DNA of 24,698 nucleotides from a virus, in IMG/VR virus record IMGVR_UViG_3300049456_000002, positions 1 through 24,698 of that record. One strand, 5' to 3'. Under the pieces are notes generated by a model, which saw nothing but the letters and a program-made list of their open reading frames with translations, was not told where the DNA came from and did not search any database. Below are positions 189-24,698 of the stretch, in pieces. A program made the translations under genes and the position numbers. Positions within the stretch are counted from its first letter, which is position 1, and each line of letters opens with the position of its first letter.

Positions 189-1276
189 GCCGGAGCCTTC
201 GGCGCGATCAGCCCGAGCACGTTCCCGAGGTCATTCCGCCACGACTGGAACGGAGTCACCTGGAGCGTGTGCTCATTCGCGTTGTACTGCACCTGACCGA
301 CCGGGAACGTGATGGGCGGCGCTACGCCGATCTCGCCGCCGTAGGGTCCGTCCGCGAGGATCAGCCTCACTACCTCTCCAGCGGTCTCGGACGCCAGGTC
401 CACGGGCGCTCCACCCACCGTGAGGTACTGCCCCTGGTTGACGACGAACGGCCCCCCGTAGCTGGCCGCCTGGTACTTCGCGAGCGCGCTGTTCGTGAGC
501 CCGAGCGCCGTCGTCCCCGTCATCACCCCGGCCGACGTGAGGTCCCAGTAGTCCTCCGTCCGGTCATGCTTGGCGATCGACGCCGCGTTCGTCCCCGTAG
601 CGGTCAGGAACGTCGCCGGGGTGCCCCCCGAGTCGGCCGTCACCTGGTACCTGGCGTACAGCGCGTTGATGTACCCCGCCAGAGTCCTCACCGCCGCGAC
701 GTTCGTGATCAGCAGACGGGTCACCGTCGAAGGGATCGGGATCAGGTCGACCTGCCATCCCGCCTGCTTCCGGCTCACCCGCCACGTGGTCGACTGCGGC
801 GACGTGATCGAGTTCAGGAAGTCGGTGATCGACTGCGACGCGGAGTCCGCCGGGTTGACCAGCATCCCCCCCGACACCGTGCCCCGCACCCAGCGGAGGC
901 CCCGGCCTAGCGCCCGGTCAATGATGTTCTCGGCCGTGTACCCACCTGCGTTGTAGTCGGCCTGGTACCGGGTGCCCCACGTCCCCGCCCCGTCCGCCGA
1001 CACTGACCACCCGTTATCACCCGCGACAGGCTGGAGCAGAATCCCCTCCCACTGGATCCGCCCGCCCACCCCGATGATCACCCTGCGGCCCGGGTCGAGC
1101 GCCTGCGGCTGCACCCTCGGATCGGACTCCAGCGAGCACGTCATCGACAGCGGGCCGCCGGGCATCTGATCTGAGAACACCGCGTCCGCAACGTGACCGT
1201 ACCGGCCGAGGTACTGCTGGTCGGTCCCGTCGACAGCCGCCGTCCACGTCGTCGCGTTCGGGATGATGCTCGGCAT
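185..1276 (-). CDS. Minor tail protein
   Basis: The product has 363 residues. The ATG at 1276 (MPSIIPNATTW) is chosen because it overlaps the upstream stop as TGATG; an in-frame start 7 codons earlier is less likely. The N-terminal half is beta-rich with GRYGHVADAVFSDQMPGGP and PGRRVIIGVGGRIQWEGIL, the pattern of the minor tail proteins that follow the distal tail protein in actinophages. They resemble the Gp37/Gp68-type hub or tip proteins. The middle has an ENIIDRAL segment and repeated Thr/Ser-rich strands. There are no membrane segments or signal peptide. It probably forms part of the tail-tip hub with the proteins on either side. The family-level assignment is by pattern and position only. 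Confidence 0.65.
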   Translation of the reverse strand: MPSIIPNATTWTAAVDGTDQQYLGRYGHVADAVFSDQMPGGPLSMTCSLESDPRVQPQALDPGRRVIIGVGGRIQWEGILLQPVAGDNGWSVSADGAGTWGTRYQADYNAGGYTAENIIDRALGRGLRWVRGTVSGGMLVNPADSASQSITDFLNSITSPQSTTWRVSRKQAGWQVDLIPIPSTVTRLLITNVAAVRTLAGYINALYARYQVTADSGGTPATFLTATGTNAASIAKHDRTEDYWDLTSAGVMTGTTALGLTNSALAKYQAASYGGPFVVNQGQYLTVGGAPVDLASETAGEVVRLILADGPYGGEIGVAPPITFPVGQVQYNANEHTLQVTPFQSWRNDLGNVLGLIAPKAPA

Positions 1277-4200
1277 CAGGCGATCCTCTCTGACCACCAG
1301 TTCGGGAAATACTGGGCCTCCAGCGCGGGCATCCCACCGGGGCTGTAAACCATGATCAGGTTGTCCCCTGGTGATAGGCGCATCGGACCCCCCGTCATGA
1401 ACGTCTGCCCGAGCACCGACACCGCCTGAGCCCGCTGCTGCACCGAGCCGAGCACCCTCCCCACGTCAGCGGTCAGCTCCGGGGAGTCGATCCAGTAGTC
1501 GGTGTACCCGGCCCCCGGAAGGCTGATCCACACGAGCTGCCCCTGCGTGTCGAGCAGCAGGATGTCCATGAACCGGTCGAGCGTGTCACCCGAGGTAGGC
1601 GAGAACGTGAAGTACGAGTCGGTGTTGTCCGGGGCCATGTCCTTGATCGGCAGCGTGATATTCCCCATGTTCACCAGGCTGTTGCTCACCCCAGACGGAG
1701 TGACTGACTGCGACAGAATGGTGCTCGACACCGCCCCGCCCGACGCCTCGTACTGCTTCGCCGTCACCGAGACCGTCCGCGCCCCCGCACCGTGCCAGGA
1801 GAAGTTCGCCAGCAGCATCGTGTACGTCCCGACGAACCGCGCCGCCTGCCCCGGCGTGACCGAGCTGGGGAAATACTCGTGGGTACCGTCCGGCGTGTCA
1901 AGCCCAGCGCCCACGTCGATCACCGGCTGCGCGAGGATCGTGTTCTTAGGCGACGGCTTGTGGAGGATCAGCGCCGGGAACGCCCCCGGAGCCGTGTACG
2001 ACTTGATGATGACCGTGATCCGGCCGTCATTGCCGTTCGCCCCATCACGGTTATACGTGGTACCCGAGATCGCGCCGCCGCCACCACCGCCGGGGTAGCC
2101 GCCGGGAACGTTGTTCGTCCCGATGATCATGCCCGACCCGCCGCCCGCTCCCTTGATGCCCAGCGACCCGGACGCCCCCGCGAGACCCCCGGCCGGGGCC
2201 GAGCCCGCGCCTCCAGCCCCTCCGTCGCCAGCGGACCCGCCGCCGCCGCCCGCATCATTCGCCGCGTAGTTGCCCTGCGCGCCCGCCCCGCCGTTGCTGT
2301 GGTGAGCGTTACCGGAGCCAGTGCCCCCGAGCCCCCCGGTCCCGTTCAGGTAGTCGCTGTTCCAGATGTTCTGCCCGCCCTGCCCTCCGTTCGCCGTCAC
2401 CGTCACCGACTTGCCGGTGAAGAACGAGGAAGTGCCGTTCCCCCCCGTCCCGACGCCCTCGAAGAAATCGCCGCCCGCCCCGATCTTGTACGCGTGGTTC
2501 GCCCCCGGATTCAGATCCAGGTTCAGCTCCCACGCGATCTCAGCGCCGCCGCCCCCGCCGCCCGCTGCCATCGTCGGCCGGGTCGACCCGCCAGCGCCAG
2601 CGCCAGCCTGGCAGATGACCGTCGCCTGCACCCCGTACGCGAAGTAAATGTCATCGAAGTAGTGGACCTCAGCGGCGGCCGGAGTCGCGATCGTGAGCAG
2701 CATCCGGCAGACGGCCGAAGTCGCGGGCGCGGTCACGAGCCCCTGATACACCGTGAAGCCGCTGTTCGTGTCAGCGACCACGCTGAGGTCCACCCGGCTG
2801 ATCGACGCCCCCGCCCCGGTAAAGAACTGAGCGCCGACCGTGATGTTCCGCACCGTCGTACCGGCCCTCGCGTACACCCGCAGCGAGACACGATCACCCG
2901 CCGCGCACTGTACCCCCTGGGCAAGCACGTTCGCCGCCAGGCACGACCCCACCGTAACGTTCGTGCCGCCCGATATCGGCACCACGCTCATCGAGTTAGG
3001 GGCCGACCGGGACTGCGCCGCCGAGAACGTCACCGTCCCGTTCGCAACTAGCCCGTCAGCGCCTCCGACCCACGTCCCGACTGAGCCCTTATCGAAGTTC
3101 GACGCATCGCCGCTCAGCGTGTTCGGGTTCTCAGCGGGCGCGACGAACTGCTGCGTGTTCCCGGGGGTACCCGGCAGCACATACGTCACCGTCGATGCGA
3201 CCAGCGGGGCCGGGGACATCTGGCAGTGGAGGTTCACCGGACTTGGCGCGGTGCCCACAGCGTCGTACACCAGGTACGTCCCGCCGCGCTGCGAGGCCGC
3301 CCGCTTAGGCGACACCTCCGGGGACGCCAGCAGCCCAGAGAGGTACGCGGCGGGGGATAGCGCCTGCGTTGGCCCCGTCCAGTTGTGAGTCTCGGACACG
3401 GCCTTGATCGAGTACCCGACGACGTTGGTGTAGGTGAACGTCTTGCCCTGCGGTATGTGGCACGACACGAGGTTCCACCGGGGCAGCAGAGGGTTATCCG
3501 ACGCCGTGCAGTCGATCCGCGTCCCGAACGTGATTGTCCGCGCCGACGCGTCGGTCAGAGTGAACGTGAAGTTCACCGGCCCCTTATGCCACCGCCGCCA
3601 CGCAGCGGACCCGTCAGCCCCGAGCCCGAACCACATCGTCAGCTTGGACCGGCCCGTGAGGTCCACCGCAGCGCCACGCGTCATCGTGATGTCATCGAAG
3701 TAATGAACCTCAGCGCCAGCCCCTGTGGCTAGCACCTCCACCCGGTTGCGGACCCAAGCCGCGGTGGCCGGGGCGGTGATGTCCGCCGTGGGGTTGGTCG
3801 TGAAGTTCGACGTGCTGTTGGTCACCGTCGTCCCGAACGTGGCCGAGATCTGCACCCCCGCCGCCGTGTAGAACTCAGCGCCCACAGCGACCGACCGGGC
3901 CGACGCCACCGACCGGCTGAACGCCGCGACATGGATGATGTCCCCGGGGACGCACGCGAGCATCTGAGTGGCGAAGTTCGCGGCTAGGCATGAGCCCGCC
4001 GACATGTCACCGCCCGCGCTGGAGGTGAGCGTCATCGACTTGGTGCCACCGTGCGCCTGCACCGCCGACTGGGCGACCGCGCAGTTACCCGTCTGCGTGT
4101 AGTTCCCGAGGCCCGCCTCGAACGTCGCGGTCTGCCCCGCGTCGAAGATCGTCCGCGTATACAGCGCGGGCGAGTTGAAGTCGGTGATCGAATGATTCCA

Positions 4201-4845
4201 CCACGCCGACTGGAAGCCATAGGCCGACTGCCCCGACGCGGACCACCACGGCACCTGCGTGCTCGTGTTGATCGCCGTGAAGTTATCGACCTCGACCTGC
4301 GCGGCCGGGGCTGTCGCGCCTATGACCGGCGAGTCGAAGTTGAGGGTCTGCTCGACATCGCTCCGGCCGAACGGCATCGCGTCGAACGTGATCGTCATCT
4401 GGCAGATGAGATTCTTCTCGTGCCCGTAGTCGTACTCAATGCCCGTCGCCGCAGCGCGCCAGCACTCGTAGATCGTGTCCCGCTGCCCGAGCGCCCCTTC
4501 CGGTGACCACACCAGCGTGAACTGATCCGCGCTGATCGCCTGCTGGATCATCTCCCGCGCACCCGCCAGCGTCAGCCGGTCATTGAAGATCGCCGCCACC
4601 GAGGAACCCGTCGTCGGCACCAGGATCACCACCGGCAGCGAGAACGTCCGGTTACTGTACCGCCACCCGGACGGGCGCTCCCCGTCGCCCATCATCGCCG
4701 CCGTGAAGTCGATCACCGGCTGAGGCGTCCCGAAGTTGTACTGCGTCCCGAGCCGGAACTTCGCGCCCGTGCATTGCGGCAGCGTCGAAGCCACGCCGCC
4801 GCCAAGCAGCTCGAAGGTATTCGCGAGCACTAGGCTGTCAGACAT
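1276..4845 (-). CDS. Large distal tail / receptor-binding protein with duplicated lectin-like modules and a glycine-rich domain
   Basis: The product has 1189 residues. Residues 1-180 look like a distal tail (Dit-type) ring domain. Two similar beta-sandwich modules follow, near residues 245-390 and 600-730. Each has a GSCLAAN motif in its first half and EVHYFDDI at its end, which suggests an internal duplication of a carbohydrate-binding-like (galactose-binding fold) domain. Residues about 740-950 are extremely Gly-rich (AAGGGGGGAEIAW, ANGGQGGQN, DAGGGGGSAGDGGAGGAG), like glycine-rich tail adhesin domains that pack as polyglycine helices. The remaining 240 residues form another beta-rich domain ending in PNWWSERIA. 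The ATG at 4845 lies 1 nt after the previous stop. The likely role is the distal ring plus host cell-wall glycan recognition. The domain labels are my inference. Confidence 0.7.
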   Translation of the reverse strand: MSDSLVLANTFELLGGGVASTLPQCTGAKFRLGTQYNFGTPQPVIDFTAAMMGDGERPSGWRYSNRTFSLPVVILVPTTGSSVAAIFNDRLTLAGAREMIQQAISADQFTLVWSPEGALGQRDTIYECWRAAATGIEYDYGHEKNLICQMTITFDAMPFGRSDVEQTLNFDSPVIGATAPAAQVEVDNFTAINTSTQVPWWSASGQSAYGFQSAWWNHSITDFNSPALYTRTIFDAGQTATFEAGLGNYTQTGNCAVAQSAVQAHGGTKSMTLTSSAGGDMSAGSCLAANFATQMLACVPGDIIHVAAFSRSVASARSVAVGAEFYTAAGVQISATFGTTVTNSTSNFTTNPTADITAPATAAWVRNRVEVLATGAGAEVHYFDDITMTRGAAVDLTGRSKLTMWFGLGADGSAAWRRWHKGPVNFTFTLTDASARTITFGTRIDCTASDNPLLPRWNLVSCHIPQGKTFTYTNVVGYSIKAVSETHNWTGPTQALSPAAYLSGLLASPEVSPKRAASQRGGTYLVYDAVGTAPSPVNLHCQMSPAPLVASTVTYVLPGTPGNTQQFVAPAENPNTLSGDASNFDKGSVGTWVGGADGLVANGTVTFSAAQSRSAPNSMSVVPISGGTNVTVGSCLAANVLAQGVQCAAGDRVSLRVYARAGTTVRNITVGAQFFTGAGASISRVDLSVVADTNSGFTVYQGLVTAPATSAVCRMLLTIATPAAAEVHYFDDIYFAYGVQATVICQAGAGAGGSTRPTMAAGGGGGGAEIAWELNLDLNPGANHAYKIGAGGDFFEGVGTGGNGTSSFFTGKSVTVTANGGQGGQNIWNSDYLNGTGGLGGTGSGNAHHSNGGAGAQGNYAANDAGGGGGSAGDGGAGGAGSAPAGGLAGASGSLGIKGAGGGSGMIIGTNNVPGGYPGGGGGGAISGTTYNRDGANGNDGRITVIIKSYTAPGAFPALILHKPSPKNTILAQPVIDVGAGLDTPDGTHEYFPSSVTPGQAARFVGTYTMLLANFSWHGAGARTVSVTAKQYEASGGAVSSTILSQSVTPSGVSNSLVNMGNITLPIKDMAPDNTDSYFTFSPTSGDTLDRFMDILLLDTQGQLVWISLPGAGYTDYWIDSPELTADVGRVLGSVQQRAQAVSVLGQTFMTGGPMRLSPGDNLIMVYSPGGMPALEAQYFPNWWSERIA

Positions 4846-4846
4846 C

Positions 4847-5122
4847 TCACGCCCCCGGGTCGAGCAGGTATGGCATACCGGGCCAGCCTATTTCCACCCC
4901 GCCCGACTCGCCCATCCCGGGCATCCAGTCAACGATGACCCGCATCCCCGCCGGGGGAGTCCACCCCGGCCCGTGATACACGTCAGGACCCGCATGCCAG
5001 GCCGCTGAGCCTGATCGCAGCGTGATCGTGTGTGGAACAGTCCCCTCACGGCTGTTCCACACCTGCTCCGTCTCAGACCCGTCATCGGTCGAGTACCCGA
5101 GCACCTTGAACCCGTCGCTCAT
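4847..5122 (-). CDS. Small tail-tip protein, unknown
   Basis: The product has 91 residues. Its ATG overlaps the tape measure stop codon (ATGA), so it is probably translationally coupled. It is rich in Gly, Pro and Trp (AAWHAGPDVYHGPGWTPPAG, VDWMPGMGESGGVEIGWPG) and has no membrane segment. I do not recognise the family. A small gene between the tape measure and distal tail genes would fit a tail-tip accessory or connector role. The coding call is secure from the frame, the overlaps on both sides and the absence of any gap in the operon. Confidence 0.6.
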   Translation of the reverse strand: MSDGFKVLGYSTDDGSETEQVWNSREGTVPHTITLRSGSAAWHAGPDVYHGPGWTPPAGMRVIVDWMPGMGESGGVEIGWPGMPYLLDPGA

Positions 5123-8100
5123 CGCGCCCCCACCCGAGCCGACTGAGCCATACCGGCCATCGGGGACTGCACGGCCCGCGCCACGGCACCGCCCGTCTTC
5201 GCAGGGGCGTCGGCCAGTCTCTGCTCAATCCGCTGCAGTAGCGCGAGCATCGGGTCCTGGCGACTGTTCACGACCCGCTCCCTCCCCCGCTCACCGAGCG
5301 CGTACGCCTGCCCGCTAGCGCCGATCCCGAGGATCGGCTCAGGGATCATCCCGCCGTTCGCCAGCCCCGCGATCTGCCTGGCCAGGCCGAGGCCCGCCGA
5401 GTGAACGTCATTGATGCCGAACCGCTCAACACCGCGCCCCCATAGATTCGCCGCCTGGAGGATGGACGTGGACCGCAGCATCTGCCCGATCACGCTCACG
5501 TCGCCGCTGTTCACCACGAACCGCAGGATCGCCGGGAGCTGCGTGCGCATCCCGCCCCGGAAGTCAGCCTCGCTGATCGTGCCCTTCGGCGTCCACCCGA
5601 TCAGCCCTCGGCCGCTGGAGTTGCCCGTCCAGATCGGGCGCTCATCATCATCCGCGATCGTGGTCCACGTGCCCGTCGTAGTCGTGAGGCAGAACGTGTC
5701 CATCGCGCCGAGGCCCCGTCGGAACTCGACCGTCTCAGTGCGCCCGTCGCCTAGCAGCAGCTTCGCCCCGATAACCAGCTCATCCGCCCGCACCAGCCCA
5801 GCATCAGTGATCCACTTGTGGTCCCATGTGCAGGTCACCGACCAGTCGTCATTCCCGATCCGACAGACGAGAGCCCGGTAGTGGTACGGGATCGCTGTGA
5901 TCGTCGCGCCCTCGACTTGCCCCGTGCGCGGGTTCCAGACCGGCGTCACATCACCGACGCGGACCTCATCATGCGCTAGGACCCCCCGCGTCGTCACGAC
6001 CCGGTACGTCAGAGGCACGCAGTCCTGAGCGAACGGATTCCACGTCGACTCGCCCCAGATCGACGCCGTGGCCCCCGCAGCGGCGATCTTGTTCCCGCCG
6101 AACAGATTCTTCAGCAGGTACTCGTAAAGCTGCTTCCCGTTCGCCATCGTCCCCGCCGACGTGCCCACCCCTGCATCGCCCGTGAAGTCGAGCGGGTTAG
6201 CGAGCGCATTCGGGTTCTTCGTGTGGATGTGGTCGGCCAGCTTCGTGAGCAGCTTGGGCGGCATCTGCGCGATCATGTGCCCGATGCCCGTCTTCGTGCC
6301 GGGGATGTTCTTGATCAGCGGGTTGATCAGCCCGTTCGCCACGCCGATCATGATGTCAGCGGTCGCGTTCTTCAGGTCAGCCCAGACAGCCGCAGCGCCC
6401 TTTTTCGCTAGGTCCCAGCCCGCCTTCAGGAACCCGCCGATGCCCTCCGTCGCGCCCGACACGCCGGGGATCTGGTAGATGTCGTAGATCGAGTCAGGCA
6501 CCGACTGAGGCCCCGTGCCCGTAGCCGTCGACCGCGCCGCGAACCCTGTGCCCTTACCCGTGACGAACCCGATGTGCTGCCCGTTGCTCTCGACGTACAG
6601 ATCGCCGGGCGACATCTTGCTGTACGACTCCTTCGGCCACGACTGGTACTCGTTCGCGGTCGGCCCGTGCGTGCGGCTGCTCCACTTCACTCCGTGCGGC
6701 AGCGTGATCCCGAACGACCCCAGGATGTAGTTCACGAACGACGAGCAGTCCCAGCCCTGCTGCGGGTTCGCCGCCCCGCCCCACACATACCGGTGACCGT
6801 TGTACGACAGCGCCTTCGCGACGACCGCGCCGCCGTCCGCGAACCGCTGCGCATTCAGGGTGTCCAGCGTCTCCCGCCCGATCGCCCGCGCCGCCCTCGG
6901 GTTGATGACGTACTCACCAGGTGAGAGCATCGCCGGAACGGTGTCCTGCCCCGGCGCGTACCCCGGCACCGGCCCGCCCCGAGCGAGCTTCAGGTTCCCC
7001 AGCTTCGGCAGCCCCAGCGGCCCGGCGACCGCATTCCAGAACCGCTCGATGCCGTTCGTGTAGACGATGTTGACGATGAATTTCACCGGCTTCATCACGA
7101 TGTCCTGGATCTTGTTCCACACGCCCGGCAGGTCAGTGATGAACTTCTGGAACGCTGCCTTGACCGGCGCGATGAACTTATCCCTCACCCACCGGAAGAC
7201 GGTCAGGAACGGCTGCACGATGTACTTGTCGAGAGCGCCCTTGATCGGGCCGAACGCGTGAGCGTAGATCCAGTTCCACGCGGTCACCAGCGCCCGGCCG
7301 AGATCACCGAAGATCCGGATCGCCGTGTTCTTGATGTTGGTCCACCCGCCGGACAGCACCCGGCCGACCGAGCCGACCGCATCCGAGAAGAACTTCGTCG
7401 TCCGCCCCCACCAGGTTGAGAAGAATTTGCCGATGTCACCGAACACGGAGAGGACGAACCGCTTGATCGCGTCCCACCCCAGGGCCAGCGCCCTGGCGAC
7501 CGAGTTGATGGCACTACCGAAGAACCGGATGGTATTGCCCCACCAGCCCGCGATGAACCGTGAGATGTCCCCAAACACCTTCATGATGAACCGTGAGATC
7601 TGCGGCCAGAACTTGATGACGGCGGCCACGACGAGACTGAGGCCGAGCGTCATCGGGGCGAGGAGCAGAGGGATGACCAGCGGCCAGTTGTGCTTAAGCC
7701 AGTCTATGACGATGAAGAACGCATGCGGCAGCGTGTGCGTGAAGAACGGGATGACGGCGCTGAAGAACCAATGCACCACCAGCAGCACCGTGTTCTTGAT
7801 GAACCCCCAGACGACGTACCAGTTCTTGACCAGCAGGAATATCGCGAACCCGATCGCGGCGATGGCCGCGACCAGCCCCACGATCGCCAGGACGATGACG
7901 CCGACCGGGTTGGCGTCCATCGCTATGTTCAGCGCCCACTGGGCCGCCGTCCAAATCACCGTCGCGGTCTTGACCGCAACCGACCAGACCCACAGCAGGG
8001 CGAGCTGCACCCGGAGGAGGAGCGTGCTGTTCTTCAGCCACTTCGTTGAGACGTTAGCGGCGTTAGTCCAGAACGTCAGCGACTTCTGCGCGTCCCGCAG

Positions 8101-9162
8101 CAGATTGGTCGCGAACGCGACGGTCTTGATGATGCCGACGACAGCGCCGAGCCCGAGCATCGCCCCGATGAATAGTTTCGCGGACCCGGACCCGCCCGTC
8201 AGCCACCTCACGAGGCCCCCGATGCCCTGCACCAGCTTCGTGAGGAACGGCAGCACCTTGACGCCGATCGTCGCCGCCGTGTCCTTCAGGGTCGCCCCGA
8301 GCTGCTTCGACTGCCCCGAGAACGTCTTAGTCGCGGCCACGCCTTCCTTGCCGTACTTGTTGTTCAGGATGCCCTGCGCCTGCGCGAGATTCTGCGCGAG
8401 GGTCGCGGACTTCGGCAGCACCTCGATGTTCAGCTTGTTGTAGTCCTTGACGTTCCCGCCCAGCGCCCCCGTGACCAGCTTGTGCGCCTCAGCCAAAGAG
8501 AGGTGATTCTTCGCCGCGAACTTGGCCAGCCCGCCCGACTCGCTGATCCGCGCATTCAACAGCTTCGACGCATTCTCCAGCGCCTTAGACTGCGTGGCCC
8601 CCGTCACCTGCGTGACACCCAGCGACTTCAGCGTGCGGGCCGCCGTGCCGCCGCCCTGCGTGAGCTTCTGGAGCACCGTCGCATAGTCCTGCCCCGTCAC
8701 CGCCGACACGCTCAGCGCCGCCTGCTGAACCTGCAGAGCTTCCTTCATCGGCACCCCGGCGTTGATCAGCTTCGTCAGCCCCGTCTGGATAACGTCCTGC
8801 GTCACGCCGTACTTATTGCCCTGCTTGACCGCATCCTCGATGATCGGCTGATTCGCCTTGACCGATAGCCCGTGCGCCTTCTCGGCGGCGGTCAGTAGCG
8901 CCGTCGACTTCTGGAGCTTCGTCCCCTCATCGATGATCTCTTTGATGCCGCCGATCGCCGCGCCGATACCCAGCAGCGCCGCCCCGGACGTGAGCACGCC
9001 CTTGAACCCCGAGCCGAAGCCCGTGCCGAAATGCTTACCGGCCTCTTTCCCCGACTTGCTCGCGGCGGTGCCGGTCGACGCGGTGGTGAGACCTTTCTCG
9101 GTGTCCTTCCGCACCTGAGACGAGTCGACCCGCAACCGGACGAACGCCTGCGCCAGCTCCAT
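5119..9162 (-). CDS. Tape measure protein with NlpC/P60 and tail-lysozyme domains, interrupted by an intein
   Basis: The precursor has 1347 residues, or 1213 after removal of the intein (residues 1048-1181). It sets tail length and probably helps DNA cross the envelope. Residues 1-320 are helical, Ala/Lys-rich tape-measure sequence. A strongly hydrophobic segment lies near 418-445, with further amphipathic Trp-rich stretches to about 650. Near residue 730-757 is the typical tape-measure motif GGPVPGYAPGQDTVPAMLSP followed by GEYVINPRAARAIG. Residues about 775-905 form an NlpC/P60 peptidase with the catalytic Cys806 (GWDCSSF) and His863 (GQHIGFV). From about 1005 a phage tail-lysozyme type domain carries the candidate catalytic Glu1038 (GESTWNPFA) and, after the intein, GRGLIGWTP. 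The ATG at 9162 has a G-rich ribosome binding site. The length fits a tail of roughly 180 nm if 1.5 Å per residue applies. Confidence 0.93.
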   Translation of the reverse strand: MELAQAFVRLRVDSSQVRKDTEKGLTTASTGTAASKSGKEAGKHFGTGFGSGFKGVLTSGAALLGIGAAIGGIKEIIDEGTKLQKSTALLTAAEKAHGLSVKANQPIIEDAVKQGNKYGVTQDVIQTGLTKLINAGVPMKEALQVQQAALSVSAVTGQDYATVLQKLTQGGGTAARTLKSLGVTQVTGATQSKALENASKLLNARISESGGLAKFAAKNHLSLAEAHKLVTGALGGNVKDYNKLNIEVLPKSATLAQNLAQAQGILNNKYGKEGVAATKTFSGQSKQLGATLKDTAATIGVKVLPFLTKLVQGIGGLVRWLTGGSGSAKLFIGAMLGLGAVVGIIKTVAFATNLLRDAQKSLTFWTNAANVSTKWLKNSTLLLRVQLALLWVWSVAVKTATVIWTAAQWALNIAMDANPVGVIVLAIVGLVAAIAAIGFAIFLLVKNWYVVWGFIKNTVLLVVHWFFSAVIPFFTHTLPHAFFIVIDWLKHNWPLVIPLLLAPMTLGLSLVVAAVIKFWPQISRFIMKVFGDISRFIAGWWGNTIRFFGSAINSVARALALGWDAIKRFVLSVFGDIGKFFSTWWGRTTKFFSDAVGSVGRVLSGGWTNIKNTAIRIFGDLGRALVTAWNWIYAHAFGPIKGALDKYIVQPFLTVFRWVRDKFIAPVKAAFQKFITDLPGVWNKIQDIVMKPVKFIVNIVYTNGIERFWNAVAGPLGLPKLGNLKLARGGPVPGYAPGQDTVPAMLSPGEYVINPRAARAIGRETLDTLNAQRFADGGAVVAKALSYNGHRYVWGGAANPQQGWDCSSFVNYILGSFGITLPHGVKWSSRTHGPTANEYQSWPKESYSKMSPGDLYVESNGQHIGFVTGKGTGFAARSTATGTGPQSVPDSIYDIYQIPGVSGATEGIGGFLKAGWDLAKKGAAAVWADLKNATADIMIGVANGLINPLIKNIPGTKTGIGHMIAQMPPKLLTKLADHIHTKNPNALANPLDFTGDAGVGTSAGTMANGKQLYEYLLKNLFGGNKIAAAGATASIWGESTWNPFAQDCVPLTYRVVTTRGVLAHDEVRVGDVTPVWNPRTGQVEGATITAIPYHYRALVCRIGNDDWSVTCTWDHKWITDAGLVRADELVIGAKLLLGDGRTETVEFRRGLGAMDTFCLTTTTGTWTTIADDDERPIWTGNSSGRGLIGWTPKGTISEADFRGGMRTQLPAILRFVVNSGDVSVIGQMLRSTSILQAANLWGRGVERFGINDVHSAGLGLARQIAGLANGGMIPEPILGIGASGQAYALGERGRERVVNSRQDPMLALLQRIEQRLADAPAKTGGAVARAVQSPMAGMAQSARVGAR
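5620..6021 (-). other. Mini-intein in the tape measure protein (class 3-like WCT signature with Cys1)
   Basis: It is an in-frame insert of 134 residues between AQD and SSGRGLIGW of the lysozyme domain, and it would restore a continuous domain if removed. Intein residue 1 is Cys (block A CVPLTYRVVTTRG). Block B is TWDH with His68, followed by Trp70 (HKW). Block F is DTFCL with Cys111 at the F:4 position. The end is WTGN with Thr132 and the terminal Asn134, and the +1 residue is Ser. Trp70, Cys111 and Thr132 together form the WCT triplet that defines class 3 inteins, yet Cys1 of class 1 is also present. The penultimate residue is Gly rather than His. There is no endonuclease domain. The boundaries follow from block alignment and domain continuity. 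Confidence 0.85.
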
Positions 9163-10752: not shown

Positions 10753-11112
10753 TCAGGCCCCCGGGAAGATGTAGGCGGATGCGGTGATCGTCGCCCCGAA
10801 CGCCGTGCAGGCGAAGTTGACGTTACCCGACGAGTCACCGAACGGGTTCTGCGGGAACGGCCCGTACATGATGTCGCCGGTCGTGATGGGGACCACGGGC
10901 AGCAGGTTGAGCGGCGCGATCGTCGTGCCCTGCGGTCCCGAGCCCGCGATGGGGGTGACCGTGACCTGGATCGTGCCACCGGACGTGTTCCTGACCCGGA
11001 GGTACGTGTTCGGCCCCGCAGGGAGCGTGTCGGCGGCGGTCGTGGTGACACCGGCCGTGATGAGATTCGCCCCGCTGAGACGGCTGACGGTGACTGGAAC
11101 TAGAGCGGTCAT
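10753..11112 (-). CDS. Unknown structural-operon protein, downstream copy of a tandem pair
   Basis: The product has 119 residues and the ATG is at 11112. It is a clear paralogue of the next gene upstream. Both start MTALVPVT and both contain TVTPIAGSGPQGTTI, YGPFPQNPFGDSSGNVN and end FPGA. By eye well over half of the positions match. It is small, beta-rich, and rich in Thr and Gly, with no membrane segment. The family is unknown to me; it could be a virion surface or neck decoration protein. The last ~20 bases of the two genes are also identical at DNA level, pointing to a fairly recent duplication. Confidence 0.6.
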   Translation of the reverse strand: MTALVPVTVSRLSGANLITAGVTTTAADTLPAGPNTYLRVRNTSGGTIQVTVTPIAGSGPQGTTIAPLNLLPVVPITTGDIMYGPFPQNPFGDSSGNVNFACTAFGATITASAYIFPGA

Positions 11113-11113
11113 G

Positions 11114-11470
11114 TCAGGCCCCCGGGAAGATGAACGCGCCGACCGTCACTGTGGCGAACGGCGCTTCGGTTAGGTTGACGTTCCCGCTGGAGTCCCCGAA
11201 CGGGTTCTGCGGGAACGGCCCGTAGATCCGGTCCCCGGGCGTGGCCTCGACCACGGGCGCGAGGACCAGCGGCGAGATCGTAGTGCCCTGCGGTCCGCTG
11301 CCCGCGATCGGCGTCACGGTGAGCGTGATCGTACCGGCGTTGCCGTTCTTGCAGCGCAGGAACGTGTTGGGACCGGCGGGGAACGTGTCCGAGCCGGTTG
11401 CGGTCGTCATCGCCGTGGCCAGGTTCGCGCCGACCAGACGGCTCGCGGTGACCGGGACTAGAGCGGTCAT
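11114..11470 (-). CDS. Unknown structural-operon protein, upstream copy of a tandem pair
   Basis: The product has 118 residues. The ATG at 11470 is separated from the upstream stop by one base (TGACATG); a longer in-frame reading from 11830 lies in the shadow of the two genes upstream and is rejected. It matches the downstream copy across its whole length. It differs mainly in the first third (LATAMTTATGSDTF against LITAGVTTTAADTL) and in the last 25 residues. Conserved blocks are GPNT, TVTPIAGSGPQGTTI and GPFPQNPFGDSSGNVN. Function is unknown; the location suggests a structural or assembly role. Confidence 0.6.
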   Translation of the reverse strand: MTALVPVTASRLVGANLATAMTTATGSDTFPAGPNTFLRCKNGNAGTITLTVTPIAGSGPQGTTISPLVLAPVVEATPGDRIYGPFPQNPFGDSSGNVNLTEAPFATVTVGAFIFPGA

Positions 11471-11471
11471 G

Positions 11472-11906
11472 TCATGTGTCCTTTCGTAGAACGAAATCGG
11501 CGGCGACCTGGAAGCAGAACTGCTCCCCGGAGTCCGCTGGCTGAGGCACGTACATCGGCTCGGACACATTGTCCGACGCGAGGATGGAGACGCCCGTCGA
11601 GCCGCACCGCTCCGGGCAGCCCCGCAGCGAGTTGATCGCCGTCGCGAGATCGGCGGCTGCGGCCTCAGCTGATTCGACGGTGCCCGCGTAGACCAGCGCC
11701 GAGATCCTGGCGATAGACGGATTGGACGACTCGGCGGTGAGCGTCGTCCGGGCCGCGACGGTGCGGGACAGCTCCGCGTACGCCCCATCGGCAGGTGAGC
11801 GGACACCGCCGTCCACGATGAACGCCCCACGCTTCAGGTTCCCCGTGGTGAGGTCCGGCCTGGCGTTGATCCACGCCAGCACCGCCGTCAGCGCCGCCAC
11901 GCTCAT
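11472..11906 (-). CDS. Tail terminator / tail completion protein (probable)
   Basis: The product has 144 residues. The ATG overlaps the upstream stop as ATGA. The alternating helix and strand pattern matches the small tail-terminator/minor capsid proteins that cap the tail tube in siphoviruses: an N-terminal helix (LTAVLAWINARPDL), VVDGG-type strands, a helix ESAEAAAADLATAINSL, and a final strand pair with VPQPADSGEQFCFQVAADF. Its place after the gp10-like connector and before the tail tube gene is the usual terminator position. No catalytic residues are expected. Confidence 0.6.
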   Translation of the reverse strand: MSVAALTAVLAWINARPDLTTGNLKRGAFIVDGGVRSPADGAYAELSRTVAARTTLTAESSNPSIARISALVYAGTVESAEAAAADLATAINSLRGCPERCGSTGVSILASDNVSEPMYVPQPADSGEQFCFQVAADFVLRKDT

Positions 11907-14223: not shown

Positions 14224-14613
14224 TTACTTACCGAGCCACTGGACCTTGGTGGTGGTAGCGCCGCCCTTGACGATGACGCCGATGATGTTGGGGACGGCGA
14301 TGGTAGTCGCGGCGATCACATCGACCCCGGCCGTAGCGCCGGGAACGACCAGGTTCCCGAACGTGACCGTGCCGCCGTTGTTGTTGACCGACTCATGGAC
14401 GATCCCGGGCATCGGCCAGATCGTCACGCGCCCGTTGACCGGAGCGTCGAACGCGGCGATCCCGATAGCGAGGTCGGTAGTCGCGGCGGTAGGCTTCACC
14501 AGGTTGTCACCAACCAGGGCCAGGGTCTGCCCCCCGGTGACCGCCGTGGTAGCGCCGACCGTCTTGGTGAACGGCTCCACGCCGTTCCTGTTCACCGGCT
14601 GGTAATCAGCCAT
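14224..14613 (-). CDS. Capsid decoration-like protein, third of three tandem paralogues
   Basis: The product has 129 residues. Near the middle it has NGRVTIWPMPGIVHESV, the motif shared with the two genes upstream. It is beta-rich with few charged residues, as in the trimeric capsid-decoration and DUF2190-like proteins. It is the most divergent of the three: it starts MADYQPVNRNGVEPFTKTVG and ends TTKVQWLGK. It sits directly before the major capsid gene, where head-decoration proteins are normally coded. The family call rests on the shared motif, size and position. Confidence 0.6.
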   Translation of the reverse strand: MADYQPVNRNGVEPFTKTVGATTAVTGGQTLALVGDNLVKPTAATTDLAIGIAAFDAPVNGRVTIWPMPGIVHESVNNNGGTVTFGNLVVPGATAGVDVIAATTIAVPNIIGVIVKGGATTTKVQWLGK

Positions 14614-14626
14614 ATTCCCTGTCCTT

Positions 14627-15055
14627 TCAGACGATCATCCAGCGGACTTTTCCGCCGTCTGCTGCCGATGTGAGAGCGAACCCGATCACTCCACGCGTGT
14701 TGTTCTCCTGCGTGTTCGCATCGGTGTTCAGGTAGCCGACCGCGAACCCGGAGGGCGGGCAGGTCTTAACCTGCTTCCCCCCGGTGCCGTCGCCTGTGAT
14801 GAGCTGATCCCCCGCCGTGATGACACCCTGAGCGACCGACTCGTGGACAGCGCCCCGGCAGTAGTACGACACACGCCCGTTGATCACGGTGTCGCTCTGT
14901 GCCACGCCGACCATCTTCAGCGACCCGGCGGTGAGGCACGTGCGGACTGTGGACGACCCGGACACCTCCAGGATGTCCGCCGCCGTCACCGCAGTGGAGG
15001 CCGTCGCGGTGACGATCTCCCCCACGATGTAAACGGGCGTGTAGTCGTTGGCCAT
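14627..15055 (-). CDS. Capsid decoration-like protein, second of three tandem paralogues
   Basis: The product has 142 residues. The ATG at 15055 (MANDYTPVYIVGEIVTATAS) is preferred because it overlaps the upstream stop (TGATG); an in-frame start 7 codons earlier exists but is shadow. It shares NGRVSYYCRGAVHESVA with the upstream copy's NGRVTVYARGWVHESVAEG. It also has the pattern 'TAG DQL(I/V)T' and ends with a K/CRW strand (GGKVRWMIV against AKCRWMEF). It is a beta-rich head-decoration candidate. Its two Cys in strand positions are unusual for the set. Confidence 0.6.
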   Translation of the reverse strand: MANDYTPVYIVGEIVTATASTAVTAADILEVSGSSTVRTCLTAGSLKMVGVAQSDTVINGRVSYYCRGAVHESVAQGVITAGDQLITGDGTGGKQVKTCPPSGFAVGYLNTDANTQENNTRGVIGFALTSAADGGKVRWMIV

Positions 15056-15462
15056 CAGAACTCCATCCACCGGCACTTCGCCGGGCCGGTGGCCGTGGTG
15101 AGTGCGATGCCGATGATGGCCCGCGCAGCGTTCACGTCCGCCTGGCCTGGTGCGCCGCCGAGCGGAGGCAGGGTCACTACCTGCCGGTTCGCCACAGACG
15201 ATGTGACGAGCTGGTCCCCGGCGTTGACGGTGCCCTCCGCGACCGACTCATGCACCCACCCACGCGCATAGACGGTGACCCGCCCGTTCGCGAGGGTGTC
15301 GTACGCCGCCGTGCCGACATAGCTCATCGACTGGGACGTGGTGCATTTGCGCACCGTGCCCGTTGCGGCAACCTCTAGCAAGTCGCCACCGCTGATCGCG
15401 GCGTTCGACGCCGTGAGCGTGACGATCTTACTGGGTGCGCCTGGCGGCGTGTAGTCGGTCAT
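15055..15462 (-). CDS. Capsid decoration-like protein, first of three tandem paralogues
   Basis: The product has 135 residues. The ATG is at 15462, seven bases downstream of the protease/scaffold stop. It begins MTDYTPPGAPSKIVTLTASN, followed by a G-rich turn (SGGDLLEVAATGTVRKC). It contains NGRVTVYARGWVHESVAEG, NAGDQLVT and a final RWMEF strand. It is homologous along its length to the next gene and more weakly to the third. All three are probably beta-barrel proteins that bind the capsid surface, but they could also be minor head proteins. The sequence is low in Lys and Glu. Confidence 0.6.
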   Translation of the reverse strand: MTDYTPPGAPSKIVTLTASNAAISGGDLLEVAATGTVRKCTTSQSMSYVGTAAYDTLANGRVTVYARGWVHESVAEGTVNAGDQLVTSSVANRQVVTLPPLGGAPGQADVNAARAIIGIALTTATGPAKCRWMEF

Positions 15463-19352: not shown

Positions 19353-21389
19353 TCAGAACGGAATGTTCATGATGTCGAGGTCACCGTGCCCGTTGCCCGT
19401 TGCCGAGCTATGAGCGGCGGCGACCGTCCTCTCATACTCTGAGAGCCCCGGCCTGGCAGGCGCTGGTGCGGGGGTCCATTCGGAAACGACTATACGCGCA
19501 GCGTAGGCCAGGACGTCAACCTGATCGTCGTGCGCGCCCTGCGGGAAGATCGCCAGCTCATCGCACCACTCATCGAGCCATGGTGCCTCAGCGGGAAACC
19601 ACACCTTCCCCGAGTGGACTCTCCCGGCGGCCGGGATAGCACGCGTCACCTTATCCGTGTCCGCGATGACCTCAGCGATCGCGTACCCCGCCGCCTGCGC
19701 GTCCTTCACGAACGTCGAGCTGTAGAACTGCTTCTCGACGTACGCCTGATTGAACCGCCACTTCGCGGCCAGCGGAGGGAGCAGCGCGAAGTGGTCGTGC
19801 ATCTCGACATGAGCCCTCGTCCTGTCGAGCAGGATCAGGTTCCCGCTGAGGTCCACCGCCCAAACGGCGATCACCGTCCAGTCGGCGCTAGTCTTCACCG
19901 ACGCGGCCACGTCCACCGTGGCGAACCGCCACGTGTCGTCCATCGTGACCGGCTGGCCATCCAGGTCTATGCGCTTACGCCCGTCGTTCCACGGCTCCAT
20001 CGACCGCCAGTACCGGAACGTGGCCCGCCTGAAGAAGTTCCCCTCGGGTGCGGTGGGCGACTGCTGGTAGATCCCCGAGAACACGTACGAGGACATCGTC
20101 GCCTTGAGCCGCCTGAAGTACCCTGCCGCCCTGCCGCGCACCGACACCAGTTCCTCGCCTACCGCACGGTGCAGCGGGTCGTCCGGCTCGTCAGCGATCG
20201 CCGGGATCTTCAGGACCTTCCAATCAAGCGGGGACGGGCGCGATGCTAGGCGGCCCGCGAGGTCGTCCTCGTGCCAGCGAGTATTGTGCGACGCCAGCCC
20301 ATTTGCTATGAAATTTTCCGTCCGGTCAATCTGAAGGTCGAACACGTCCTCCCGCCCGGCGGGGACGACTTCGACTATCTCATCGGTCGTGACGGCGTAG
20401 GTACTTAGCGGCTGCGTCGCAGGTGACTCCCCGCCATTTGCCCCAGTGACCAGCCGGATACGATCGCCCGGCTTGAGCGTGCCCGTTCGCTGCCACGTCT
20501 CGGCTCCTTGCGCGTCCACAGTTAGGAACGGGTGCCGAGCGTTCGCGCGCACCGTTCGTCCTGATCTCATCCTAATACGGAAGATTCGATCGGGACCTTG
20601 GCTCGCCCAGTTGCGCACCGTGGAAGTTGACAGCTTCCCGCCCTCATACGTGGCCACCGTGTCACCCGGCCGTACGTCCCGCAGCGGCTTCTCCGCGCCG
20701 TCGCCCATCAGCACGGGTGTGTCGCCGGTCATGCACTGGATGAGCACGACCTTGCCGTTCGGGGCGAGACGGGTCAGCGCGACGGACTCCCACCAGTCCC
20801 AGGCTGTGTCCCGCACCTTCGAGGACTCCGCTGCGGCCCTGTCTTTCACCGGGTCGTCCACGATCAGCACGTCCACTGGGCGTCCGGCGAGAGGCCCGCC
20901 GATGCCGACGCAGTACACCCCGCCGCCAGATGGCGTCTCCCACCGTCCCGCCGCCGCAGAGTCACGCCGGATCTTGATGTGGAGTCCACCGCACTCCATC
21001 TCGCATTCACCGCGCGGTAGGTGCGATCGGCATGGGTTCAGGGCGATGTCCTGCTTGATGTCACGGCCCCACCTGAGCGCGGTGTCCTGCTCGTAGGAGA
21101 CGATCGCGATGCGGAGCGTCGGGTCATGGTCGAGCAGCCATTCGGGGAACCGGCGAGAGCACTTCTGCGACTTGCCCTCCTGTGGCGGCAGGAACACGGC
21201 GAGGGCGTTGACCGGTGAGCTGGCCTCCATCAGTTCCACGAGCGCGTCATCGATCAGGGTGAGGGCGGGTGACGTGCCGACCTTCGGGTCTAGTCTGCTG
21301 GCGAGGGCACCGGGAGTCGGGTACCGGCGCGGGCGCTTCTCCGCTAGCTTGGCCGCGAACTCCCAGGGTGAAACACTCGCCGTTGTCAT
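19353..21389 (-). CDS. terL: Terminase large subunit, interrupted by an intein
   Basis: The precursor has 678 residues; the mature protein would have 527. It is the packaging ATPase and nuclease. Walker A is PPQEGKS (68-74) and Walker B is VLIVDD (174-179). The coupling motif TRWH begins at residue 370, immediately after the intein (219-369). The nuclease part has Asp493 (ATVDVAAS), Glu552 (YVEKQFYSS) and Asp621-Asp622 (HDDQVDVLAYAA), the usual acidic triad. The ATG at 21389 has no convincing ribosome binding site but has a -10-like TAGCAT just upstream. A 376-bp gene-free island with repeated motifs lies upstream of this start. No small terminase gene is seen in the window. Confidence 0.95.
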   Translation of the reverse strand: MTTASVSPWEFAAKLAEKRPRRYPTPGALASRLDPKVGTSPALTLIDDALVELMEASSPVNALAVFLPPQEGKSQKCSRRFPEWLLDHDPTLRIAIVSYEQDTALRWGRDIKQDIALNPCRSHLPRGECEMECGGLHIKIRRDSAAAGRWETPSGGGVYCVGIGGPLAGRPVDVLIVDDPVKDRAAAESSKVRDTAWDWWESVALTRLAPNGKVVLIQCMTGDTPVLMGDGAEKPLRDVRPGDTVATYEGGKLSTSTVRNWASQGPDRIFRIRMRSGRTVRANARHPFLTVDAQGAETWQRTGTLKPGDRIRLVTGANGGESPATQPLSTYAVTTDEIVEVVPAGREDVFDLQIDRTENFIANGLASHNTRWHEDDLAGRLASRPSPLDWKVLKIPAIADEPDDPLHRAVGEELVSVRGRAAGYFRRLKATMSSYVFSGIYQQSPTAPEGNFFRRATFRYWRSMEPWNDGRKRIDLDGQPVTMDDTWRFATVDVAASVKTSADWTVIAVWAVDLSGNLILLDRTRAHVEMHDHFALLPPLAAKWRFNQAYVEKQFYSSTFVKDAQAAGYAIAEVIADTDKVTRAIPAAGRVHSGKVWFPAEAPWLDEWCDELAIFPQGAHDDQVDVLAYAARIVVSEWTPAPAPARPGLSEYERTVAAAHSSATGNGHGDLDIMNIPF
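20283..20735 (-). other. Mini-intein in the terminase large subunit (class 1 type)
   Basis: An in-frame insert of 151 residues splits the sequence VVLIQ / TRWHEDD at the ATPase coupling motif. Intein residue 1 is Cys (CMTGDTPVLMGDG, block A). Block B has RHPFLT with His68; Asn65 replaces the usual Thr of TxxH. Block F is VFDLQID with Asp133 and ENFIANGL, and the end is ASHN with the penultimate His150 and Asn151. The +1 residue is Thr. These are the residues for standard class 1 splicing. No endonuclease motifs fit in this length, so it is a mini-intein that cannot home by itself. Splicing is needed for an active motor because the insert breaks motif III. Confidence 0.93.
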
Positions 21390-23202: not shown

Positions 23203-23316
23203 TCAGTCCCCTATCGCGAGCAGCACGCCGAGCGCCACGCAGACGGCGGCCATCAAGATCGCCGTCAGGAACAGCGTCCACAGCAGACAGCCGAGGTCGC
23301 TCCCGAACCTATCCAT
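23203..23316 (-). CDS. 37-residue membrane peptide
   Basis: The start is the ATG at 23316, which overlaps the end of the repeat protein gene. The sequence MDRFGSDLGCLLWTLFLTAI continues as a single hydrophobic span of about 22 residues (residues 11-33) and ends in AIGD. A longer in-frame reading from 23460 lies inside the repeat region of the preceding gene and is rejected. The single transmembrane helix suggests a small membrane protein; a holin-like role is possible but there is no lysin gene nearby. Codon overlap with both neighbours supports it being real. Confidence 0.5.
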   Translation of the reverse strand: MDRFGSDLGCLLWTLFLTAILMAAVCVALGVLLAIGD

Positions 23317-24698
23317 GCGGCGGCCTCGCTCCCCATCGTCCGTGCGGTTCACCGCTACTGTAACGCCCGTGCGGCGGGCCGTCACCCCACCTACCGTGCG
23401 GTGCCGCCGCCTCGAACCTGCCATGCGGAGGCCCCGCCGCCCATCTGCCGTGCGGTTCACCTGCCGTCACCGAGCGGAGGCTGATCTGCGTGGCTATCGT
23501 CGCCGCCAGTGCGGCCCAGCTCACGCCGACCCCGGATGCCAGCAGCGCCGTCACTGTGGCCGCGAGGCCGGGGTCCTCCGCCGTGCCCGTGGCGGTGGCC
23601 AGCAGCGGGGCGAGCCCTATGCCTGGTGCGCGGCTGGCCCCGCTGCCCGTAGCCACGCTAGCAGCCGCTGTGGCCACGGACGCGGCTGTGAGCGCCGCGC
23701 CAGCCCCCGTGGGTAGCGTCACCCCTCGGAGCTGCCCGCACGGCTGTGCGGTGCCTGTGCCGCCCGCCACGGGGACGCCTAGCATGATCCCCGGGGCCAG
23801 TGAGGCACCGGACCCGGAGGCGAGGCCCGCACCGAGGCGGATACCCGGGGCCTGCGCTGCGCCCGTCCCCGACGCCAGTCCTCCCGTGGCCGTGGCCGAG
23901 GGAATGGGCGACTGGGCTGCGCCGGTACCCGAGGCCAGGCCAGCGGTCACGTTCAGATTGCTGCCACCCCCTGCGGCGACCGCATCGAACGCCACGCCGA
24001 GACCTGTGGCCACGATGGTGATCACCGTGTTGATAGGGGCCGCCGACTGCGCCGTGCCCGAGCCAGAGGCCAGCGCCGGGGTGAGCCCCACGCCCAGGGT
24101 CTGAGCTGAGCCAGCTCCCTGAGCCAGCCCGCCCCCGAGCCCGATGCCCAGTGAACCGGCTGCCCCCACCCCGGATGCCAGCGCCGGGGTGAGACCGATC
24201 CCGGGAGCACGCGCCGCGCCAGCTCCGGTGGCCAGCCCCGAGGTCACCGCAGATGAAGGACTAGCCGACTGAGCCGAGCCAGCCCCCGAGGCCACGCCCG
24301 GGGCGAGCATCACCCCCGGCTGCTGCGCTGAGCCAGCGCCTTGCGACAGACCTGCGCCGAGGATCGTCCCAACCTGCCCCGCAGCGCCCGACCCGGCAGG
24401 CAAACCCGGGGCAAGGCCGATTCCCGGCGCGGAGGCAGCCCCAGAGCCACCGGGAAGCCCGGCCCCAAGCCCTATGCCAGGGGTGCCCGCCGACCCGGTA
24501 CCGGCCGCCTGTGGTGGTGCCAGTGCGCTATCAGGGTCCACGTCCAGCGCGGCCCCGGTGGCGGACGCGAGCCCGGCGGTGACCTGAAGGTCAGGGACGG
24601 ACGCCGCAGACGGGAACCTCTGCCCCTGCACCCGGTGATGCAGCCGCCGCCAGTTCTCGCCGCCCGGCTGCGGCCGGATGTCGGCGGACAGCGTAGGC
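23309..24698 (-). CDS. Low-complexity repeat protein, C-terminal 462 residues (5' end beyond right edge)
   Basis: The frame is open to the right edge: it reads ADIRPQPGGENWRRLHHRV in the last bases, before the first internal GTG at 24631, so the true start is outside. The body consists of about a dozen 18-residue repeats of the form GIGLxxGLASGSGAAxAP, rich in Gly, Ala and Ser, with some non-repeat inserts. The last 49 residues are PHGR repeats with a 9-residue period. No catalytic motifs are present. It may be a fibrous or surface protein of the virion. The 3' end overlaps the membrane peptide gene. Confidence 0.7.
   Translation of the reverse strand, partial: PTLSADIRPQPGGENWRRLHHRVQGQRFPSAASVPDLQVTAGLASATGAALDVDPDSALAPPQAAGTGSAGTPGIGLGAGLPGGSGAASAPGIGLAPGLPAGSGAAGQVGTILGAGLSQGAGSAQQPGVMLAPGVASGAGSAQSASPSSAVTSGLATGAGAARAPGIGLTPALASGVGAAGSLGIGLGGGLAQGAGSAQTLGVGLTPALASGSGTAQSAAPINTVITIVATGLGVAFDAVAAGGGSNLNVTAGLASGTGAAQSPIPSATATGGLASGTGAAQAPGIRLGAGLASGSGASLAPGIMLGVPVAGGTGTAQPCGQLRGVTLPTGAGAALTAASVATAAASVATGSGASRAPGIGLAPLLATATGTAEDPGLAATVTALLASGVGVSWAALAATIATQISLRSVTAGEPHGRWAAGPPHGRFEAAAPHGRWGDGPPHGRYSSGEPHGRWGARPPHG
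23312..23458 (-). repeat. 27-bp / 9-residue PHGR repeats at the C-terminus
   Basis: There are five full units of [E/P/A]PHGR[W/F/Y]xxx and a final PPHG, with an exact 9-residue spacing. The units are EPHGRWAAG, PPHGRFEAA, APHGRWGDG, PPHGRYSSG, EPHGRWGAR and PPHG. In DNA the units differ at third and other positions, so the pattern is kept at protein level rather than as an identical DNA tandem repeat. Each unit has one His, one Arg and one aromatic residue. Confidence 0.8.
23480..24560 (-). repeat. 54-bp / 18-residue glycine-alanine repeats
   Basis: The pattern GIGLxxGLASGSGAAxAP recurs through the protein, for example GIGLGAGLPGGSGAASAP, GIGLAPGLPAGSGAAGQV, GTILGAGLSQGAGSAQQP and GIRLGAGLASGSGASLAP. 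Some units are spaced by inserts such as SPSSAVTSGLATGAGAARAP. The regular PG-I-L and GSGAA positions suggest a repeating strand-turn or polyproline-like rod. The DNA copies are degenerate. Confidence 0.75.

Follow-up and report, generated by a model that had tools for sequence, protein, structure and literature searches.

Background

Mixed-motif inteins, which pair the Trp-Cys-Thr (WCT) triplet with an N-terminal nucleophile, were reportedly described by Tori and Perler in 2011 in phage-linked proteins, mycobacteriophage Catera Gp206 and a Nocardioides JS614 TOPRIM protein; the Catera Gp206 intein is said to start with Ser1 rather than Cys1. Canonical class 3 inteins, among them MP-Bethlehem DnaB, Msm DnaB-1 and Mch DnaB1, carry Trp at B:12, His at B:10, Cys at F:4, Thr at G:5 and Asn at G:7 within a HINT fold, retain a penultimate His, and have neither Cys1 nor Thr B:7. 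Their origin is disputed: they have been derived either from class 1 inteins by loss of Cys1 (PMC3196547) or, by convergence, from a protease-like ancestor (PMC7664689). A mycobacteriophage survey recorded class 1 inteins in which Gly, Lys or Ser replaces the penultimate His, and the Bethlehem RDF intein, counted as class 1, has such a Gly (mBio 2016, PMC5050341).

The intein described here lies in a viral stretch of 24,698 nucleotides (hereafter the window; IMG/VR record IMGVR_UViG_3300049456_000002) and belongs to an under-described phage intein family. It shares all five residues and the predicted HINT fold with canonical class 3 inteins but, unlike them, has Cys1, Thr B:7 and a penultimate Gly; a penultimate Gly is also found in the Bethlehem RDF intein.

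An intein in the tape measure gene

The insert comprises 134 residues that translate without a stop from Cys1 to Asn134 (window positions 5620-6021, minus strand) and lie in frame within the 1347-residue tape measure ORF at 5119-9162 (minus strand), of which they form residues 1048-1181. Flanked by ...STWNPFAQD on the N side and SSGRGLIGWT on the C side, it reads C1...TWDHKW70...TFC111LTT...IWT132GN134. Translation placed every residue singled out in the earlier note at its claimed position: Cys1, Trp70 two residues after His68, Cys111 at block F position 4 (F:4), Thr132 two residues before Asn134, and Gly133 as the penultimate residue. The +1 residue is Ser. The features of the locus, with the evidence for each, are:

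5119-9162, minus strand: tape measure protein precursor, 1347 aa (predicted ~1213 aa once spliced); best match to tail length tape measure families in PHROGs at E 2.5e-30
5620-6021, minus strand: mini-intein, 134 aa, without a homing endonuclease domain; translation, alignment, model and PDB comparison
6019-6021, minus strand: Cys1 (A:1); invariant, 63/63 relatives
5827-5829, minus strand: Thr65 (B:7), class 1-type residue; 63/63 relatives, 0/12 class 3 inteins
5818-5820, minus strand: His68 (B:10); 63/63 relatives
5812-5814, minus strand: Trp70 (B:12), W of WCT; 55/63 relatives
5689-5691, minus strand: Cys111 (F:4), C of WCT; 63/63 extracted relatives, 68/70 including unextracted ones read by eye
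5626-5628, minus strand: Thr132 (G:5), T of WCT; 59/63 relatives
5620-5625, minus strand: Gly133-Asn134 (G:6, G:7), C-terminal splice junction; Gly 61/63, Asn 63/63 relatives
5617-5619, minus strand: Ser+1, putative C-extein nucleophile; Ser in 34, Thr in 15 and Cys in 8 relatives
6022-6141, minus strand: Phage_lysozyme2 domain, N-terminal part (tape measure residues 1008-1047); Pfam
6049-6051, minus strand: Glu1038, the conserved GES.WNP Glu and a candidate catalytic residue; unchanged across 8 empty-site homologues, role suggested by the phi29 gp13-type fold
5410-5619, minus strand: Phage_lysozyme2 domain, C-terminal part (tape measure residues 1182-1251); Pfam
6532-6798, minus strand: NlpC/P60 domain of the tape measure protein (residues 789-877), uninterrupted; Pfam E 1.7e-7

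The insert shows what is expected of an intein: it is a flush, in-frame insertion absent from homologues, has a predicted HINT fold, and contains blocks A, B, F and G with the nucleophile, His B:10, the terminal Asn and Ser+1. Its best PDB sequence match is a bacterial intein-like (BIL) domain, 2lwy, and the profile of a small family matches NrdJ-1, DnaX and other inteins in the PDB. Structure modelling, proposed in the earlier note as a check, gave a confident AlphaFold2 model with a HINT fold (pLDDT 96.6, pTM 0.87) that matches solved inteins: the PDB structures among the matches listed are inteins, intein-like or hedgehog autoprocessing domains, including the class 3 structures 6rix and 6bs8. 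The identification as an intein is thus borne out by PDB matches in sequence and structure, by restoration of a Pfam domain when the insert is removed, and by intein-free alleles.

Empty sites in the lysozyme domain

In Pfam searches with the tape measure protein, the Phage_lysozyme2 domain (PF18013) was recovered at E 8.7e-4 with the insert and at 1.4e-7 without it; the joined flanks score 32.2 bits against a Pfam cut-off of 28.2, below which the domain falls when the insert is present. Flanks were joined, to show the empty site, for the window tape measure gene and its homologue at locus L003 only. A scan of viral contigs with the N-side flank yielded intein-free homologues of the lysozyme domain. 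In the nearest of these, L090, IWGESTWNPFAQGGGGRGLIGWT stands in place of the window's IWGESTWNPFAQD-(134 aa)-SSGRGLIGWT, and at the DNA level the joined window flanks align with it over 537 bp at 74.9%, gap-free at the junction; further empty loci also align across the junction at the DNA level. The earlier note named, as a finding that would speak against an intein, close homologues carrying the same 134 residues as part of a conserved non-intein domain; the close homologues found lack these residues.

The model of the empty lysozyme domain is of moderate confidence (pLDDT 73), and its sole credible structural match is the phi29 gp13 tail lysozyme, which represents the kind of domain interrupted in the window. 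The phi29 gp13 protein itself is not known to have an intein. This resemblance and the Pfam result upon rejoining uphold the claim that a tail-lysozyme domain is interrupted. On the N side of the insertion point stands the invariant GES.WNP Glu, nine residues ahead of the last N-extein residue, and on the C side the GRGLIGWT motif. Glu1038 is, from the alignment and the fold, a candidate for the catalytic Glu of the domain.

Because the insert separates the GES.WNP Glu from the GRGLIGWT motif, the unspliced lysozyme domain is very unlikely to be active, and a continuous domain would need splicing. The suggestion that lysozyme activity appears only after splicing is therefore plausible from the position of the insert; a tie between splicing and virion maturation, also raised in the earlier note, is speculation. 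On the plain reading, the intein is a selfish element, its endonuclease lost, and is maintained by the need for exact excision. Recurrent insertion at active-site motifs of hydrolases, polymerases and portals is the usual intein pattern and requires no regulation. In mycobacteriophage TM4, a tape measure motif of the peptidoglycan hydrolase kind is reported to promote the infection of cells in stationary phase (PMC1796659), so lytic domains of tails can be of consequence for infection.

A phage intein family with Cys1 and WCT

A mini-intein 61% identical to that of the window lies at the same point of another tape measure protein (L003; GPESRN-(134 aa)-SSGWGLIGW). The N-terminal part of that protein appears unrelated to its counterpart in the window, and the lysozyme domain has apparently moved together with its insertion site and intein. 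Between the two inteins, dN is 0.37 and dS 1.27 (NG86), with dS near saturation and the dN/dS ratio accordingly rough; dN below dS fits purifying selection.

Full-length relatives were found in the tape measure proteins of the Gordonia phages Mcklovin and Twinkle, and others in DNA polymerases, portals and terminases. The Mcklovin and Twinkle inteins and that of the DNA polymerase of the Escherichia phage PaulScherrer belong to the same family, with Cys1, HRW and WCP.T, but are larger than the window intein, contain an endonuclease-type insert and occupy other sites. The Mcklovin intein ends in TSN and is unannotated as an intein, whereas that of PaulScherrer is annotated; the PaulScherrer annotation (L004, 2501-3238; MZ501100.1) appears to be one residue off, running from Val2 to Cys+1.

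Single-protein scans with the window intein turned up a single viral relative; genome contigs gave none, and a block F DNA pattern search gave chance matches only. A profile scan of viral contigs yielded 64 loci; after removal of near-duplicates and addition of phage records, 63 inteins were cut out and aligned. In these 63, which share ~30% identity, were sampled with patterns from the family's own N-terminal motif (position 1 lying outside the patterns but inside the confirming query) and were extracted automatically on the demand for a block F Cys, five residues are invariant: Cys1, Thr B:7, His B:10, Cys F:4 and Asn G:7. Trp B:12 is present in 55/63, Thr G:5 in 59/63 and Gly G:6 in 61/63. 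Relatives missed by the extraction were read by eye: five more have Cys F:4, one (L067) has Asp, one (L086) is degenerate, and three are truncated or interrupted ahead of block F. Of 70 complete relatives, 69 thus have Cys1 and 68 have Cys F:4. Locus L067 (from 2648 onward) keeps Cys1 and ends in SGN; in L086 (from 244 onward), Cys1, Cys F:4 and Asn are gone and the intein looks dead. Trp B:12 and Thr G:5 covary (Fisher p 7e-6, uncorrected for relatedness).

The combination of Cys1, WCT and a penultimate Gly, described in the earlier note as rare, is standard among the 63 non-redundant relatives, and Cys1 with WCT and Thr-Gly-Asn is, on these sequences, the normal make-up of a large phage intein family. 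It may look rare because class 3 is defined by the absence of an N-terminal nucleophile; a census of 1701 class 3 inteins required 'no cysteine' at the N-end (PMC7891396), so inteins like that of the window were excluded. The NT and DNMT inteins of the mycobacteriophage survey (PMC5050341) resemble the extended family of the window intein, with Trp B:12 replaced by Met and Val. The Bexan genome has no intein-sized RDF gene annotated.

Relationship to class 1 and class 3 inteins

The window intein has the position-1 nucleophile (Cys1), Thr65 at B:7 and His68 at B:10 of class 1 inteins, and departs from two class 1 norms that are usual but not universal, Asp F:4 and His G:6, by Cys111 and Gly133. 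It also has the class 3 triplet at B:12, F:4 and G:5, while Cys1 sets it outside the original definition of class 3, which specifies no N-terminal nucleophile. In a sample of twelve canonical class 3 or class 3-like inteins from phages, Thr B:7 was found in 0/12, His G:6 in all, and Cys1 was absent in nearly all, position 1 being mostly Ala or other.

FastTree and IQ-TREE analyses (134 columns, four class 1-type outgroups) separated the Cys1 family, including its Asp F:4 member L067 (UFBoot 100), from the class 3 inteins (UFBoot 89), with a topology compatible with acquisition of WCT either by descent or by convergence; with these few outgroups, the window intein fell outside the class 3 clade sampled. 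Alignment against both classes supported the earlier note as to the WCT triplet. Assignment to class 3 by precedent is not supported: the canonical class 3 inteins are a clade of their own with other residues at B:7 and G:6, and the Catera-type precedent therefore cannot be carried over directly. The ET08 gp202 intein (SLACSTP...HLW...RCITV...THN), a probable orthologue of Catera Gp206, falls in the canonical class 3 clade and has no Thr B:7; judged by this probable orthologue and by its reported Ser1, the Catera Gp206 intein differs from the window intein with its Cys1, Thr B:7 and TGN end.

Class definitions turn on the presence or absence of a nucleophile at position 1. The inteins of a large phage family with both signatures near-invariant have been assigned in part to 'class 1 without His' and in part to 'mixed motif', or fall outside class 3 counts by definition; the small endonuclease-free ones among them could help to show how class 3, whose origin is disputed, arose.

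Predicted splicing mechanism

Judging by its residues and its model, the insert very probably splices. We are likewise largely confident in the following reading: the tail-lysozyme domain harbours, near its active site, a splicing-competent mini-intein of the large phage family with Cys1, Thr B:7, His B:10, Trp B:12, Cys F:4 and a Thr-Gly-Asn end, which would excise itself, joining NPFAQD to SSGRGLIGW in a mature tape measure protein of ~1213 residues. Excision by the HINT fold would follow translation and make the lysozyme domain continuous again. In the scheme that we tentatively propose, Thr65 and His68 would strain the Asp(-1)-Cys1 bond, with the first thioester on Cys1; the acyl group would then pass from Cys1 to Cys111 and on to Ser+1, Asn134 would cyclise without a penultimate His, and an O-N shift would form the final bond. 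Close to the C-terminus of the insert there is no His that could aid Asn cyclisation; the class 3 AceL NrdHF intein, without both C-terminal His residues, splices within minutes (PMC7891396), and the Gly-ending Bethlehem RDF intein was shown to splice (PMC5050341).

We infer the role of each cysteine from conservation only. Cys1 is probably functional because Cys1 and Thr B:7 are invariant: had the N-terminal bond been opened by Cys F:4 alone, the machinery that they form with His B:10 should have decayed, as it has in true class 3 inteins. The same invariance leaves splicing 'through the block F Cys' alone, the route cited in the earlier note for mixed-motif inteins, unproven for the window intein. 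Cys F:4 is near-equally invariant and Trp B:12 and Thr G:5 covary, which argues that Cys F:4 works too; participation of both cysteines is thus favoured. A relay from Cys1 to Cys111 to Ser+1 would be the most economical scheme, ahead of a class 1 route with a Cys helper and then of plain class 3, and we put it forward tentatively. That the family as a whole uses both cysteines in series, by a pathway with two nucleophiles that would be intermediate between the class 1 and class 3 routes, is possible, though on balance doubtful. If true, it would mean that WCT machinery can evolve with Cys1 still present, and no non-splicing stage would have to be assumed on the way to class 3.

A class 1 mechanism, unlikely but to be taken seriously, would transfer the Cys1 thioester directly to Ser+1, with Cys111 as a helper replacing Asp F:4 and WCT serving only in packing and proton transfer. 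The complete N-terminal machinery (Cys1, Thr B:7, His B:10) agrees with it, as do Asp F:4 in the clade member L067 and the mention of class 1 inteins with Cys F:4 in PMC3196547; however, Cys F:4 in 68/70 relatives and the covariation of Trp B:12 with Thr G:5 suggest a catalytic triad. Somewhat less likely still is a class 3 mechanism, in which Cys111 attacks the Asp(-1)-Cys1 bond directly, a block F branched intermediate forms and Cys1 is dispensable. Class 3 inteins do splice in this way (PMC5222942, PMC3196547), the fold matches include class 3 structures, and the three WCT residues are conserved in 55/63, 63/63 and 59/63 relatives. Nevertheless, Cys1 and Thr B:7, two positions under no such constraint in true class 3 inteins, are each present in 63/63, whereas a dispensable Cys1 should drift across such divergence, and the two groups form separate clades (UFBoot 100 versus 89).

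It is improbable that the insert is an inactive or cleavage-only relic, akin to a bacterial intein-like domain, whose flanks are no longer joined: the BIL domain 2lwy is its best single PDB sequence match, the penultimate His and the endonuclease domain are absent and the relative L086 is clearly degenerate, but all catalytic positions including Asn134 and Ser+1 are intact, L003 has an intact homologue at the same site, and the family-wide invariance and a dN below dS point the same way. That the insert is a structural domain of the tape measure protein, in line with its in-frame, stop-free translation, is extremely improbable, as close homologues lack it flush, solved inteins are matched and the terminal catalytic residues are present; a genuine non-intein domain is ruled out by the empty-site alleles.

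Host proteins and insertion sites

Family members interrupt tape measure proteins, DNA polymerases, portals, terminases, a sigma factor and others. Tape measure proteins, considered an uncommon host in the earlier note, turned out otherwise: by junctions and flank domain scans, lytic domains of tape measure or tail proteins are the insertion target in at least 18 of 50 non-redundant loci, spread over about six sites. Family A DNA polymerase accounts for eleven. The sites in lytic domains are:

Directly after E|SG.N: L023, L028
Between the Glu motif and the GL(M/A)Q motif: L025, L026, L031, L032, L087
At the equivalent point of the lysozyme domain: window, L003
After GIPQ or GLMQ: L024, L033, L034, L039, L042, L050
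At AHE.|S..WY: L036, L038, L040
Before HVHWA in a peptidase-like domain: L047, Mcklovin

No description of inteins in tape measure lytic domains was found in the part of the literature that was searched. For annotators, these lytic domains are repeatedly occupied, and the host domain in the window stays under the Pfam cut-off until the intein is removed.

Two further hosts were observed. A phage sigma-70 factor (L060, 3501-4256) carries a 252-residue Cys1 and WCT intein directly ahead of regions 3 and 4. At L016 (5001-5402), a 134-residue Cys1 and WCT mini-intein lies close to the N-terminal end of a protein similar to the first part of the distal-tail-like window ORF 1276-4845; the window copy, the next gene but one to the tape measure gene, is intein-free.

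Other features of the window

A second intein, a 151-residue class 1 mini-intein with Cys1, HPF, FDL at F:4 and SHN|T, interrupts the terminase large subunit at VVLIQ|TRWHEDD (20283-20735, minus strand). BLASTP detected no similarity between it and the tape measure intein, and the idea that the latter is a recent copy of the former was rejected on this ground. Three adjacent small genes (14224-14613, 14627-15076 and 15055-15462, minus strand) are apparent tandem copies, the last two 48% identical, and the adjacent frames 10753-11112 and 11114-11473 (minus strand) encode near-copies of a ~119-residue protein (MTALVPVT.SRL.GANL...PFPQNPFGDSSGNVN). A low-complexity protein with GLASGTGAAQAPGIGL-like repeats, and with PHGRW repeats at its end, is encoded at 23309-24631 (minus strand).
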